Part shown: positions 6,260 through 42,604 of the stretch, piece by piece
How positions within the stretch are numbered: position 1 is the stretch's first letter
Layout: the number at the start of each line of letters is the position of its first letter
DNA from: Azonexus hydrophilus
GTDB taxonomy: Bacteria; Pseudomonadota; Gammaproteobacteria; Burkholderiales; Rhodocyclaceae
DNA length: 64,000 nt
NCBI RefSeq assembly: GCF_001956855.1
Contig: NZ_MTHD01000003.1
Location: 372,001 to 436,000, forward strand
Direction: 5' to 3'
Notes under the pieces: model-generated
What the model was told of the DNA's origin: nothing
The model's input: the letters and a program-made list of their open reading frames with translations, nothing else
The model's database searches: none
Program-made: the position numbers and the translations under genes

Positions 6260-6273
6260 TGCGGTCGACCGCA
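6260..6273. repeat. Perfect 14-bp palindrome TGCGGTCGACCGCA
   Basis: Intergenic copy of the dispersed motif, between the haem-type cyclase gene and the aceB terminator. The same full palindrome occurs at 42591-42604, and the 10-base core TGCGGTCGAC recurs across the window (see findings). Confidence 0.85.
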
Positions 6274-17775: not shown

Positions 17776-17808
17776 AAAAAGCCCGTCTGTTTCCAGGCGG
17801 GCTTTTTT
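17776..17808. terminator. Bidirectional terminator between csp and soxZ
   Basis: GCCCGTCTG and CAGGCGGGC pair around TTTC (one G-U pair), flanked by A5 on the left and T7 on the right. It can end csp on the plus strand and soxZ on the minus strand. Confidence 0.88.
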
Positions 17809-20916: not shown

Positions 20917-22644
20917 TTGACCGCATTTTTCGAAGATCGGCGGGCGCCAGCGGGTGAACCCGCCGCTTGGCTTTTCGAGCGCCATTTTTCGCTGCTGGAG
21001 GTGGTCGACCGCAAGACGCTGGACGAGGCTCTGCAGCAGCTCGACAGCGAGCCGGCGTGGACCGTCGTGGCGCTGGAATACGAACTCGGCTACCTGCTCG
21101 AACCACGCTCGGCGCCGTCGGGCTGGCAGCCGGACGGGCGACCGCTGGCACGTTTCTGGCGTTTTCACGAACGCAGCGAAATGAACGCCGAGGCTGCCGC
21201 CGGATGGCTGACCGACAACGCGCCGGGACAGCCCGCCGGCGTCGCCAACTGGCGCGAGGCAATCGATGAAAATGCCTATCTTGTTGCGGTCGACAGCATC
21301 AAAACGCTGATTTCCGCTGGCGACTGTTACCAGGTCAATTTCACCTTCCCGGTCGAGTTCGACTGGTTCGGCGCACCGCTCGACCTTTACGCCAGGTTGC
21401 GTCAGCGGCAGCCGGTACGTTATGGCGGCTTTGTCGGCGATGGCCGGCAGGGCATCGTCTCGCTGTCGCCGGAGCTGTTCGTCGAACGCCGTGGCGACCG
21501 CTTGCTGACCCGGCCGATGAAGGGGACGGCGCCGCTCGATGCGCCACCGGAAGCGCTGCGCGATTCGCTGAAGGACCGCGCCGAGAACCTGATGATCGTC
21601 GACCTGCTGCGCAACGACCTCGGGCGCATTGCCGACAGTGGCAGCGTCCGTGTCGACCGTCTGTTCGCCATCGAGGATTACCCGACGGTGCGCCAGATGG
21701 TGTCGGAGATTTCAGCTTCAGTCACCGGCCGGCGCTTCGCCGAGATACTGCCGGCGCTGTTTCCCTGCGGCTCGATCACCGGCGCGCCGAAGATCCGGGC
21801 GATGCAGATCATCGGCGAACTGGAGGCAGGGCCGCGCGGTATCTACACCGGCGCTTTCGGCTGGCTGGCGCCGGATGGCGATTTCCGCCTCAACGTCGCC
21901 ATCCGCACGCTTGAACTGGCGGCGGACGGGCGAGGGCGGATGGGCATCGGCAGCGGCATCGTCGCCGATTCCGAAGGCGCTGCCGAATGGGCGGAGTGCC
22001 GGCTGAAGGCGGGATTCCTGCGCGATTGCGACCCCGGCTTGCAGTTGATCGAAACCCTGCGCCGCGACGGCGGTGTCTATCCGATGTGGCAGGGGCATCT
22101 GGCGCGTCTGCGGCATTCGGCCGCCTGGCTGGGTTTTCCGCTCGACGAACAGGCGCTGTGCCGGAAGCTGGCCGAGCAACCGACCACCGGCATCTGGCGG
22201 GTGCGGCTGACGCTCGACCAGGCTGGCGGGATTGCCGTGCAGTCCTTTCCGCTGGCGGCGACGCCGTCTGAAATCCAGGATGCCGTGCTGACCGGAGCGG
22301 CCATCGACGCCGATGACCCCTTGCGCCGGCACAAGACAACGGCCCGTCCGCTTTACGACGCAGCCTTGCGTGATCTGCCGGCCGGTTGTTTCGACGCGAT
22401 CTTCCTCAACCAGCGCGGCGAGATTGCCGAAGGTGCGCGCAGCAATATTTTCGTCGAGCGCGACGGCATCCTGCTGACCCCGCCATTGGACAGTGGCGCC
22501 TTGCCGGGTGTTTTGCGGGCGAGTCTGCTGGCCAGCGGGCGGGCGCGCGAAGCGGTGCTCTATCCGGCGGATCTGGCCGAGGGTTTCTGGCTGGGTAATG
22601 CGCTGCGTGGCTTGCTGCCGGCGCGTTTGCGGTCGACTGCCTGA
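20917..22644 (+). CDS. Fused aminodeoxychorismate synthase component I and aminodeoxychorismate lyase
   Basis: Bifunctional folate-pathway protein of 575 residues. The PabB part (about 1-360) makes 4-amino-4-deoxychorismate from chorismate with glutamine-derived ammonia. It shows GDCYQVNFTFPVEF, RPMKGTAPLDA, ENLMIVDLLRNDLGR and the signature PCGSITGAPKIRAM. The PabC part (about 370-575) is a PLP-dependent branched-chain aminotransferase-like lyase with FLNQRGEIAEGARSNIFVERDG and the lysine region RRHKTTARPLYD. PabB-PabC fusions are well known in proteobacteria. The only reasonable start is TTG at 20917, 8 bases after the tusA stop. The last codons lie inside a 20-bp perfect inverted repeat. 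Two copies of the dispersed motif sit in the coding region (21004 and 21285). Confidence 0.92.
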   Translation: MTAFFEDRRAPAGEPAAWLFERHFSLLEVVDRKTLDEALQQLDSEPAWTVVALEYELGYLLEPRSAPSGWQPDGRPLARFWRFHERSEMNAEAAAGWLTDNAPGQPAGVANWREAIDENAYLVAVDSIKTLISAGDCYQVNFTFPVEFDWFGAPLDLYARLRQRQPVRYGGFVGDGRQGIVSLSPELFVERRGDRLLTRPMKGTAPLDAPPEALRDSLKDRAENLMIVDLLRNDLGRIADSGSVRVDRLFAIEDYPTVRQMVSEISASVTGRRFAEILPALFPCGSITGAPKIRAMQIIGELEAGPRGIYTGAFGWLAPDGDFRLNVAIRTLELAADGRGRMGIGSGIVADSEGAAEWAECRLKAGFLRDCDPGLQLIETLRRDGGVYPMWQGHLARLRHSAAWLGFPLDEQALCRKLAEQPTTGIWRVRLTLDQAGGIAVQSFPLAATPSEIQDAVLTGAAIDADDPLRRHKTTARPLYDAALRDLPAGCFDAIFLNQRGEIAEGARSNIFVERDGILLTPPLDSGALPGVLRASLLASGRAREAVLYPADLAEGFWLGNALRGLLPARLRSTA

Positions 22645-22671
22645 AAAAACGGATTTTCAGGCAGTCGACCG
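22626..22671. repeat. 20-bp perfect inverted repeat between pabBC and valS, containing two TGCGGTCGAC copies
   Basis: The arm at 22626-22645 (TGCGGTCGAC plus TGCCTGAAAA) is the exact reverse complement of 22652-22671, with a 6-base loop. It spans the pabBC stop codon (22642-22644) and ends 9 bases before the valS stop. It is probably a strong bidirectional RNA hairpin at the junction of two convergent genes. The T and A runs lie inside the arms, so it is not a textbook intrinsic terminator. Confidence 0.85.
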
Positions 22672-22680
22672 CAGCAGGAC

Positions 22681-25518
22681 TCAGCCGAGTTTGGCCAACT
22701 GCGGCTTCAGCTTGTCCAGCGTTGCCGTGAAGTCGGCGACGCGCTGCTTTTCCTGATCGATCACGGCGGCCGGTGCGCGGGCGACGAAGCCCTCGTTGTT
22801 CAGCTTGCCCTGGGCAATCGAAATCTGCTTCTCCAGTTTTTCGATTTCCTTGGCCAGACGAATCTTCTCGGCGGCAACGTCGATCTCGACCTTGAGCATC
22901 AGCCGGGTCTCGCCGACGACGGCGACCGGTGCCATCGCGTCGTCCGGCATGTCGGCGACGATCTGGACTTCGGAGAGCTTGGCCAGCGCCTGCAGGATCG
23001 GGGCGAATTCGGCGATATCGGCACCGCCACCGGTGACCAGCAGCGGCATGCGCAGGGCCGGCGAGACGTTCATTTCGCCACGCAGGTTACGGCAGGCGTG
23101 GGCCAGCGCCTTCAGGCGCTCGACCTTGGCTTCGCTGGTTTCGTCGAGACGCGACAGATCGGCACGCGGGTAGGCGGCGAGCATGATCGAGTCGTGCGTC
23201 TTGCGCCCGGCAATCGGTGCGACGGTCTGCCACAATTCCTCGGTGACGAACGGGATCAGCGGGTGCGCCAGGCGCAGGATCGCTTCCAGCGTGCGGATCA
23301 GCGTCCGCCGGGCGCCGCGTTGCTGGGCTTCATCACCGGTCTGGATCTCGACCTTGGCGATTTCCAGGTACCAGTCGCAGAACTCGTCCCAGACGAACTT
23401 GTAGATCGCCTGGGCGACCAGGTCGAAACGGTAATCGGTGAAGTGACGTTCGACTTCCTGCTCGACGCGTTGCAACTGGCTGACGATCCAGCGATCGGCA
23501 AAGCTGAATTTCAGACGCGCTTCGCCTTCGGGCACGTTGCACGCACCGCCCTGCAACTGCTGGTGATCGAGCGCCAGGTCGTGGCCTTCGACATTCATCA
23601 GCACGAAGCGGGTGGCATTCCACAGCTTGTTGCAGAAATTGCGGTAGCCGTCGCAGCGGTTGAGGTCGAACTTGATGTCGCGACCGGGCGAGGCGAGCGA
23701 GGCAAAGGTGAAGCGCAGCGCGTCGGTACCGAAGGACTGGATGCCTTCCGGGAATTCCTTCCTGGTCTTCTTGGCGATGCTTTCCGCCTGCTTCGGGTTC
23801 ATCAGGCCGGTCGTGCGCTTTTCGATCAGCGCCTCGAGGCCGATGCCGTCGATCAGGTCGATCGGGTCGAGCACGTTGCCCTTCGACTTCGACATCTTCT
23901 GGCCTTCGCCGTCGCGGATCAGGCCGTGCACATAGACGTGCTTGAACGGGATCTGGCCGGTGATCTGCTTGGTCATCATGACCATGCGGGCAACCCAGAA
24001 GAAGATGATGTCGAAACCGGTGACCAGCACCGACGACGGCAAATATTGCTGCAACAGCGGGTTGACCGCATCAATCGCCTCGTCGCCTGTCCAGTCCAGC
24101 GTCGAGAACGGCCACAGCGCCGACGAGAACCAGGTGTCGAGGACATCTTCGTCGCGGCTCAGTGCGCCGGTATAGCCCTGTTTGGCGGCTTCTGCTTTGG
24201 CTTCCTCTTCGCTGTGAGCGACGAAAATCTGGCCGTTGTCCCCGTACCATGCCGGGATCTGGTGGCCCCACCACAGCTGGCGGGAAATACACCAGTCCTG
24301 GATGTTGTTCAGCCACTGGTTGTAGGTATTGACCCAGTTTTCCGGGTAGAACTTGATTTCGCCGGAATGGACAACCTCAAGCGCCTTTTCCGTGATCGAC
24401 TTGCCGTCGTCGCCGGGTTTGGACATCGCGACGAACCACTGGTCGGTGAGCATGGGTTCGATGACGACATTGGTCCGGTCGCCGCGCGGCACTTTGAGCT
24501 TGTGCTTGTCGACCTTGACCAAGATGTCCTGCTCTTCGAGATCGGCGACGACAGCCTTGCGGGCGTCGAAGCGGTCCAGTCCACGGTATTTCTCGGGGGC
24601 GTTGTCGTTGATCCTGGCATCCAGCGTCAGGATCGAGATCATCGGCAGGCCGTGGCGCTGGCCGACGGCGTAGTCGTTGAAGTCATGCGCCGGCGTGACC
24701 TTGACGCAGCCGGTGCCGAATTCGAGATCGACGTAGCTGTCGGCAATGATCGGAATTTCGCGGTCGGTCAGCGGCAGCTTCACCATCTTGCCGATCATGT
24801 GCTGGTAGCGCTCGTCTTCCGGATGGACCATGACGGCGGTGTCGCCGAGCATGGTTTCCGGGCGCGTCGTGGCGACCACCAGGCTATCGCTGCCATCGGC
24901 CAGCGGATAGCGGATCTGCCACATGAAGCCGTCTTCTTCTTCCTGCACCACTTCCAGGTCGGACACGGCGGTATTCAGCTTCGGGTCCCAGTTGACCAGG
25001 CGCTTGCCGCGGTAGATCAGGCCTTCGTTGAACAGGCGGACGAAGGTTTCGGTGACCACCTTGTTGAGGCCGGCATCCATCGTGAAACGCTCGCGTTTCC
25101 AGTCCGGGCTGGTGCCCATGCGGCGCATCTGGCGGGTGATCGTGCCGCCGGAGTATTCCTTCCATTCCCAGACCTTTTCCAGGAACTTCTCGCGGCCGAG
25201 GTCGTGGCGGCTGATCCCCTGGGCATCAAGCTGGCGCTCGACGACGATCTGCGTAGCGATGCCGGCATGGTCGGTGCCCGGCTGCCACAGCGTGTTGTGG
25301 CCGCGCATCCGGTAGTAGCGGGTGAGCGCGTCCATGATCGTCTGGTTGAAGCCGTGGCCCATGTGCAGCGTGCCGGTGACGTTGGGCGGCGGCAGCAGGA
25401 TGCAGAAATTATCCGCTTTGCTGCGGTCGACCCCGGCAGCGAAGTAATTTTGCGCTTCCCACTCGGGATACCAGCGGCGTTCGATGTCGGCGGGTTCAAA
25501 GGCTTTGGCGAGTTCCAT
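22681..25518 (-). CDS. valS: Valyl-tRNA synthetase
   Basis: Class I aminoacyl-tRNA synthetase of 945 residues. It has the HIGH-type motif [18 protein letters not shown] near residue 40, the editing (CP1) domain including [14 protein letters not shown], and the KMSKS loop [22 protein letters not shown]-terminal coiled-coil arm ([29 protein letters not shown]) is diagnostic for ValRS. I use ATG 25518 (MELAKAFEP). A frame reading up to 25548 begins inside a TATAAT box and is less likely. A motif copy lies at 25422-25431. It follows a small unknown gene downstream of holC. Confidence 0.97.
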
Positions 25519-25547
25519 GGACTTGGCGGAAAAGGGGAAAACCGGCA

Positions 25548-25553
25548 ATTATA
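25548..25553 (-). promoter_or_regulatory. Candidate -10 element of valS
   Basis: TATAAT on the minus strand in the context CGGTATAATTGCC, 30 bases before the valS ATG. The -35 is not recognisable. The same CGGTATAATTGC context occurs before ribF. Confidence 0.4.
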
Positions 25554-37858: not shown

Positions 37859-37885
37859 GCGCTCTGGGCACAAGAAAAAACCGCG

Positions 37886-38853
<968 letters not shown>

Positions 38854-42590: not shown

Positions 42591-42604
42591 TGCGGTCGAC
42601 CGCA
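42591..42604. repeat. Perfect 14-bp palindrome TGCGGTCGACCGCA
   Basis: Second full intergenic copy of the dispersed palindrome, located between the folE2 terminator and the folE2 stop codon. The flanks extend the symmetry approximately (TTC on the left, GAA on the right). Confidence 0.85.

Follow-up and report, generated by a model that had tools for sequence, protein, structure and literature searches.

The best-known means by which bacteria distinguish the DNA of their kin from foreign DNA are uptake sequences. As far as the texts available to us go, they have been described for the Pasteurellaceae and the Neisseriaceae. The uptake signal sequence (USS) of the Pasteurellaceae has the consensus aaAAGTGCGGTnrwwwwwnnnnnnrwwwww, as quoted in PMC1852404; in Haemophilus, the A/T regions lie about two helical turns downstream of the core (PMC12616744), and the spacings of facing pairs peak where the long 3' ends of both motifs are preserved (PMC1852404). 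The DUS of the Neisseriaceae is continuous, spans up to ~13 nt and, according to the excerpted text of PMC12616744, is without phased A/T tracts. It comes in dialects, is missing from some related genomes and, in Simonsiella, has 1,294 copies in overlapping dyads (PMC3630211).

The hairpin between the pabBC and valS genes of Azonexus hydrophilus would by itself be ordinary; it is one site of a genome-wide motif, two tags set face-to-face around a common spacer. Like the Haemophilus influenzae-type USS, this motif is abundant, occurs on both strands and consists of a core followed by A/T tracts about two turns downstream, and the letters TGCGGT are common to both. It differs in its lineage, in a core that goes on with CRAC, in that its uptake role is putative and, when the two are aligned on TGCGGT, in having its main tract at +25 to +28 rather than at about +20 to +24, the nearer tract being weak. 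With only TGCGGT in common, convergence is as likely as descent from the Pasteurellaceae system. To judge from the available text on the Neisseriaceae DUS, the motif resembles it in its single-base dialects, in the existence of related genomes without any copies and in overlapping dyads like those of Simonsiella, and a ComP_DUS-family pilin is likewise present in Azonexus; the DUS, however, has unrelated letters and is a continuous word with no phased tracts.

The motif is likely to be a previously undescribed uptake signal sequence that serves as a genome-wide self tag. We prefer this reading because of the abundance of the motif, its two-part form, its occurrence on both strands, its dialects, its patchy presence among relatives and its near absence from insertions. 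The type IV pilus machinery would prefer same-kind DNA for uptake through the tag, round after round of transformation by tagged DNA, with recombination, would spread the tag and keep it in resident DNA, and newly arrived mobile elements would come without it; at pabBC/valS, the hairpin would in addition go on serving, as it did before, as a 3'-end stem for the two convergent genes. Novelty would lie in the lineage and in the joining of a Haemophilus-like plan to Neisseria-like dialects. Titles and abstract starts of the open-licence literature yielded no uptake sequence for Azonexus, Dechloromonas, Azoarcus or Rhodocyclales; among papers containing the letters TGCGGTCGAC, no title concerned uptake sequences; and the available part of the Dechloromonas aromatica genome paper (PMC2907700) mentions neither 'competence' nor an uptake sequence.

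An abundant motif of two parts

The window, that is, the whole stretch of 64,000 nucleotides analysed, contains 20 exact copies of TGCGGTCGAC, against 0.7 expected under a second-order Markov model, and 40 copies when one mismatch is allowed; for the latter, shuffled sequences gave 9.4 on average and 17 at most. In the 3,596,517-base genome the word occurs 895 times (442 forward, 453 reverse), compared with 22 occurrences (13 + 9) of a reversed-word control. TGCGGTCGAC belongs to the core, (T/C)(G/A)CGGTC(G/A/C)AC, of a bipartite motif whose other part is an A/T tract, phased at two helical turns downstream. Counted as the composite CGGTCRAC-N15-WWWW, the motif has 1,234 sites in the genome (642 + 592 by strand), and the reversed control has 10 (3 + 7).

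Flank profiles were taken from 127 copies, drawn from 464 kb of the genome (the window and 20 stretches of 20 kb). T stands at -3 in 81% of copies, Y at -1 and C at +12 in 66%. The main A/T tract extends from +24 to +28, reaches 95–98% A/T at its centre (+26 to +28), in a genome of 37% A/T, and is followed by Y and C; a second, weaker peak lies at +16 to +18. WWWW at +25 accompanies 101 of the 128 exact cores in the 464 kb, against a background of 2%, and in the phased-tract test WWW at +26 is found with 91% of cores. The weak peak at +16, present in 42% of copies, drops to 26% once palindromic pairs are left out and is therefore partly due to those pairs. One-mismatch words keep the tract in 48 of 64 cases when core position 1 is changed to A or position 7 to A or C, and in 6 of 21 when position 0 is changed to C; positions 3–6 and 8–9 tolerate almost no change, the tract being kept in 1 of 97 such words. 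The columns between core and tract mostly carry low information in the 127 copies, and among the matches listed the spacers vary from copy to copy.

Two facing copies at the pabBC/valS junction

The features of the junction are as follows.

22628–22637, plus strand: motif copy 1, core TGCGGTCGAC (window motif search; the core found 895 times in the genome)
22664–22673, minus strand: motif copy 2, core TGCGGTCGAC, facing copy 1 (window motif search)
22653–22657, plus strand: downstream A/T tract of copy 1, ATTTT, +25 to +29 from the core start (read from the letters; tract defined on 127 copies)
22644–22649, minus strand: downstream A/T tract of copy 2, TTTTTT, +24 to +29 from the core start (read from the letters, as the complement of 22644–22649)
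22628–22647, no strand: left arm of the perfect 20-bp stem (inverted-pair scan)
22654–22673, no strand: right arm of the perfect 20-bp stem (inverted-pair scan)
22642–22644, plus strand: pabBC stop codon TGA, inside the left arm (letters and reading frame)
20917–22644, plus strand: pabBC, with chorismate-binding and aminotransferase class IV domains (Pfam domains fit the name)
22681–25548, minus strand: valS, valyl-tRNA synthetase (Pfam domains fit the name)

A first-pass annotation had described here a perfect 20-bp hairpin with a 6-base loop, composed of two inverted copies of a recurrent motif, containing the pabBC stop codon and separating two convergent genes. Each of these points is borne out: the inverted-pair scan returns two 20-nt arms that are 100% complementary (20/20 bp) around a loop of 6 nt, with the cores, the stop codon and the genes placed as listed. 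The hairpin exists as described; its position, given as 22626–22671, lay two bases too far to the left. Among the best 25 of the 28 inverted pairs in the window, ranked by length and with arms within 60 nt of each other, no other pair exceeds 13 nt at 100% complementarity. Folded as RNA, the 46 nt of the hairpin reach -37.4 kcal/mol.

Both copies have the core, the tract and the following YC, with T at -3 in copy 2 only, and the A/T tract of each falls inside the spacer of the other. Ten of the 20 paired bases accordingly belong to motif core and four to motif A/T tracts; the AAAA/TTTT stem ends follow from the two motifs, and the extra pairing is confined to the middle six bases (TGCCTG/CAGGCA), which are non-motif. 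The long 3' ends of both motifs are thus preserved, as in the facing pairs of Haemophilus, and on the published text available this arrangement is closer to Haemophilus than to Neisseria.

The annotation had compared the hairpin with uptake-sequence pairs that serve as terminators in Neisseria. The likeness to uptake sequences is a sound lead; a terminator of the same geometry is not supported, as no T-run follows the stem on either strand and a terminator scan does not call the hairpin. In the portion of PMC1852404 available, A- and T-tails form part of the basis for the Neisseria case. Elsewhere in the window, the hairpins at 37875–37905 (13 nt, 100%) and 17776–17807 (14 nt, 93%) are by contrast terminator-like, with A and T tails. 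The broader proposal would be that the motif pair forms an intrinsic bidirectional terminator and that the motif exists for that use. A very stable stem at a convergent junction, with a stop codon included, is what it would predict; the missing T-runs speak against it, as do results on pairs and relatives given in the next two sections.

Pairs, gene context and orientation

Close pairs, taken as composite sites within 80 bp of each other in the 464 kb (cores without a tract being left out), number 19, and all are inverted. Sixteen are overlapping palindromes at distance 4, and single pairs occur at distances 33, 34 and 36. The last is the pabBC/valS hairpin, the sole perfect 20-bp stem among the 19; the other two non-overlapping pairs are intragenic and imperfect, one being able to pair 14 bases around an 18-base loop. 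The annotation had tied its terminator proposal to the existence of further paired copies in the genome. Further pairs do exist, 18 of them among the composite sites of the 464 kb, in shapes that differ from the hairpin. The overlapping pairs form 14-bp palindromes, 11 of them intergenic and five overlapping a gene call, and the overlap is made easy because GTCGAC in the core is itself palindromic. Two lie in the window.

6260–6273, no strand: overlapping palindromic pair (TGCGGTCGACCGCA) with its A/T tracts outward, the commonest paired form (motif and pair search)
42591–42604, no strand: another overlapping palindromic pair (motif and pair search)

Overlapping palindromes also set the Azonexus motif apart from the DUS, whose inverted pairs are tied to terminators. 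They bring to mind HIP1, the highly iterated palindrome of cyanobacteria, which is not known to have a one-sided tract. Each is a short word, palindromic in part, that certain lineages carry in very large numbers; unlike HIP1, the full Azonexus motif is directional. The motif might accordingly be a HIP1-like protein-binding or methylation site of the chromosome, its GTCRAC core seen by a methyltransferase, a nucleoid protein or a repair system and its repeats marking or organising the chromosome. The palindrome GTCGAC and the 16 overlapping palindromes among 19 close pairs fit that idea, which we nevertheless consider unlikely: the bases preceding the palindrome and the fixed one-sided A/T tract make the motif directional, and pairs at distance 4 come almost free with a palindromic core.

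Gene context was derived for the 464 kb from a crude frame selection of our own rather than from annotation. Of 188 composite sites, 137 (73%) lie within genes and 51 between them (27%, against 12.7% expected). The in-gene sites are evenly divided in their orientation to the gene (69 vs 68); one reading-frame class takes in 93 of the 137, split 47/46 by orientation. Nor is there any strand bias by stretch over the 21 stretches (chi-square 11.0, 21 df), which tells against a polar replication or recombination signal of the Chi, KOPS or AIMS kind; such a signal would likewise be short, abundant and directional, and we regard it as extremely improbable here. Mobile or duplicative repeat copies (REP-like or MITE) are extremely improbable as well. 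They would account for a dispersed sequence in hundreds of copies, some of them hairpin-forming, but no element body extends beyond the short motif, the spacer is variable (in the 127-copy profile and among the matches listed), 73% of sites are within genes, and the dialects described below are single-base differences in core columns.

Where intergenic gaps measure 700 bases or less, the density of composite sites is 1.06/kb in tail-to-tail gaps (sites in 6 of 51 gaps) and 0.96/kb in head-to-tail gaps (16 of 199), above the overall 0.41/kb, and falls to 0.27/kb in head-to-head gaps (2 of 53). This distribution would suit a terminator, but 137 of 188 sites are intragenic and the perfect looped pair stands alone among the 19. 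With any composite site at all in only 6 of 51 tail-to-tail gaps, pairs are no general terminator device in the 464 kb.

Origin of the junction stem

The junctions after valS were placed by alignment to ValS and folded for 30 genus loci and five named loci. A strong stem directly follows valS at five of the 30, namely in the source genome (G000), G044, G037, G025 and G027 (the last at a contig end); the other 25 have no strong stem, with -6.7 to -15.4 kcal/mol over 70 nt. Among the named loci, a stem (-39) stands in UBA7395 and a classical terminator, T-run included, in Azospira; A. fungiphilus gives an interrupted fold of -27, and two are without a stem. By eye, most of the 25 stemless loci carry a small gene (~DKRGxxAxIFIALMIF) directly after valS, with pabBC further on; this gene is missing between valS and pabBC here.

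The stem-bearing relatives are low in composite sites (88 in G044, 43 in G037, 21 in G025 and 51 in G027), UBA7395 has no site with a tract in 23 kb, and the motif core is absent from the junction stem in all five. An inner CTGAAA/TTTCAG is common to the source genome, G044, G037 and UBA7395. In four of the next seven pairs outward, UBA7395 has other letters than the source in each arm, yet pairing is maintained (C-G/G-C, T-A/C-G, A-T/G-C, C-G/G-T). The junction stem thus stays paired though its letters differ in relatives. This alignment used the rows of G000 and UBA7395; those of G044, G037 and G025 were left out, and their stems come from folding.

Since motif-poor relatives have a stem of other sequence, with compensatory changes, the junction stem probably predates its present outer arms. 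On this comparison, a 3'-end hairpin was probably there first, and its outer arms were later turned into uptake sequences. The stems in G044, G037, G025, G027 and UBA7395 would also be expected of a terminator, but their different sequence in motif-poor genomes separates stem from motif, and a motif that exists to form terminators is in sum very unlikely. As no T-run follows the stem, we infer that it may block 3' exonucleases once Rho has ended either of the convergent transcripts, and so would protect or define their 3' ends.

Carriers, non-carriers and dialects

To place the putative uptake signal among relatives, composite sites were counted in 76 genomes, which we infer to be the GTDB genus Azonexus (valS led to named relatives such as Azonexus fungiphilus, a Dechloromonas MAG and UBA7395). 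Two peaks stand out in the counts, 391–1,785 sites in 40 genomes and 9–60 in 28; the remaining eight have 88–159. We call the 40 carriers and the other 36, with at most 159 sites, non-carriers. The eight intermediates (G045, G046, G044, G047, G005, G067, G061 and G007) stand above the control and far below the carriers, possibly through decay after loss of the system or as mixed assemblies. Of 399 genomes drawn from across the order, six belong to the genus, and the other 393 peak at 37 composite sites; the seven from other genera of the same family have at most 9 each. The motif is thus limited to part of one genus, with carriers making up 40 of 76 genomes inside and 0 of 393 outside. In a few other families the core alone is slightly more frequent than its control, with the highest count in G083 (89 vs 17), where the composite count is 4. 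A binding or methylation site would also give lineage-limited abundance, and scarcity in new insertions; the 36 genus genomes without the motif count against it.

Samples of 40 kb were taken from 20 relatives, 11 of them carriers by composite count (G064, G038, G029, G068, G042, G031, G023, G019, G122, G071 and G050) and nine non-carriers (G065, G046, G047, G034, G043, G015, G017, G021 and G044). NNCGGTCRAC with WWW at +26 occurs 6 to 28 times per sample in carriers and 0 to 2 times in non-carriers. An unbiased search over 6–8-mers and offsets (p<1e-8, 40 kb per genome) recovered the core with its phased tract in 8 of the 11 carriers and in none of the nine non-carriers; the carriers G029, G023 and G122 did not pass. 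A different dialect in the nine non-carriers finds no support within the 40 kb of each, as no word there has a phased tract; CGAGCAGG and TCCTTGACC are enriched words in some of them, without such a tract. The dialects of the carriers are single-base differences in core columns, seen in small numbers in 40 kb each: AGCGGTCGAC (G038), AGCGGTCAAC (G071), CGCGGTCGAC (G029), C/TACGGTCAAC (G068, G122) and CACGGTCRAC (G064). The G064 sample (L141–L142) also holds about nine copies in 40 kb of a longer repeat with TTCTCCCCCGACG, which is unrelated to the motif. Of eight named loci of ~23 kb, that of A. fungiphilus (DSM 23841) has the tract at 9 of 13 cores and that of Dechloromonas SSB2 at 7 of 12; the other six are without.

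On a valS tree of the 30 of 76 genus genomes that have the locus, plus Azospira, the carriers are scattered: their labels need 8 changes, against a shuffled mean of 9.8, and 79 of 500 shuffles were as low. A single origin of the motif finds no support in this tree, and repeated gain or loss is therefore needed.

With moderate confidence, we propose that Azonexus/Dechloromonas has a third, independently evolved uptake-sequence system, which would be bipartite, convergent with the Haemophilus plan in its TGCGGT core and phased A/T tracts, divided into dialects, gained or lost several times among sister species, read as a word by some receptor and in conflict with mobile elements that repeatedly interrupt comEC. 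If so, a third lineage would offer dialects, intermediates (the eight genomes with 88–159 copies) and full absence within one genus, such that origin, spread and loss could be traced, and the motif could be a practical transformation tag for bacteria relevant to biodegradation.

Candidate receptors

ComEA, DprA and an operon of type IV minor pilins are all encoded in the source genome. Next to a pilY1-like gene of that operon, named from sequence, and 1.7 kb outside the window lies the gene for a ComP_DUS-family pilin (E 2.8e-22). A minor pilin may be the reader of the tag. The family, PF16732, may take in PilE-like minor pilins generally, and the 21 solved chains matched by the pilin sequence include ordinary pilins and a PilE, with none named ComP. 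Presence or absence of the ComP_DUS-family pilin fails to tell carriers from non-carriers, as 70 of the 76 genomes have it, and the tree of these pilins does not follow the motif either. Built from 50 of the 70 matching genomes, with one pilin each (the pilin-signature frame nearest to the match), it requires 12 changes of carrier label against a shuffled mean of 16.3; 8 of 500 shuffles were as low, which indicates some clustering of carriers. GspH/FimT-family proteins, for which DNA binding has been shown or predicted elsewhere, according to the text available of PMC12616744, occur in 69 of the 76 genomes, and none of ComEC, ComEA and GspH/FimT separates carriers from non-carriers in that set. 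As all four candidates fail to track the carriers, we name no receptor; if the uptake reading is true, one could be sought by comparing sister species.

Insertions in comEC

Motif content of newly acquired DNA was assessed at comEC insertions only, and there such DNA is poor in the motif. In three carriers (G122, G060 and G002) the comEC pieces are 34–49 kb apart, and the inserts, of 33.7–48.5 kb each and 125.6 kb together, contain one composite site, where the genome-wide density would predict 27 (p 5e-11). Flanking DNA from those stretches has 13 sites in 44 kb. For two non-carriers with a split comEC, the numbers are 2 and 0 in the inserts and 0 and 0 in the flanks.

In the source genome, comEC is in two pieces on different contigs (C10:855627-856886 and C17:32473-33087; L244 and L245), with transposition genes adjoining. 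Contigs C10 and C17 would be joined through one element, which encodes a Mu-type transposase, TniB and TniQ; the 10.2 + 7.5 kb (17.7 kb) of the insert examined have 0 composite sites. With its comEC split, the strain may not transform now. Interruption of comEC by transposable elements has been reported for Piscirickettsia salmonis, according to the available text of PMC12955456.

By eye, comEC is in one piece in 33 of the 40 carriers. It is not in one piece in 13 of 36 non-carriers vs 7 of 40 carriers (p 0.07), and among genomes at least 90% complete in 7 of 23 vs 6 of 33 (p 0.34), so that lacking a one-piece comEC is not significantly commoner in non-carriers in either set. The gene is likewise split, at various positions and with ~2 to 64 kb between the pieces, in G065, G122, G043, G002, G060, G005, G028, G017, G035 and G056. 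The insert of G002 encodes a CHAT protein and a viral-type DNA polymerase, and that of G060 has an IS4/5-type transposase domain together with ThiF/E2 and SbcC-like genes.
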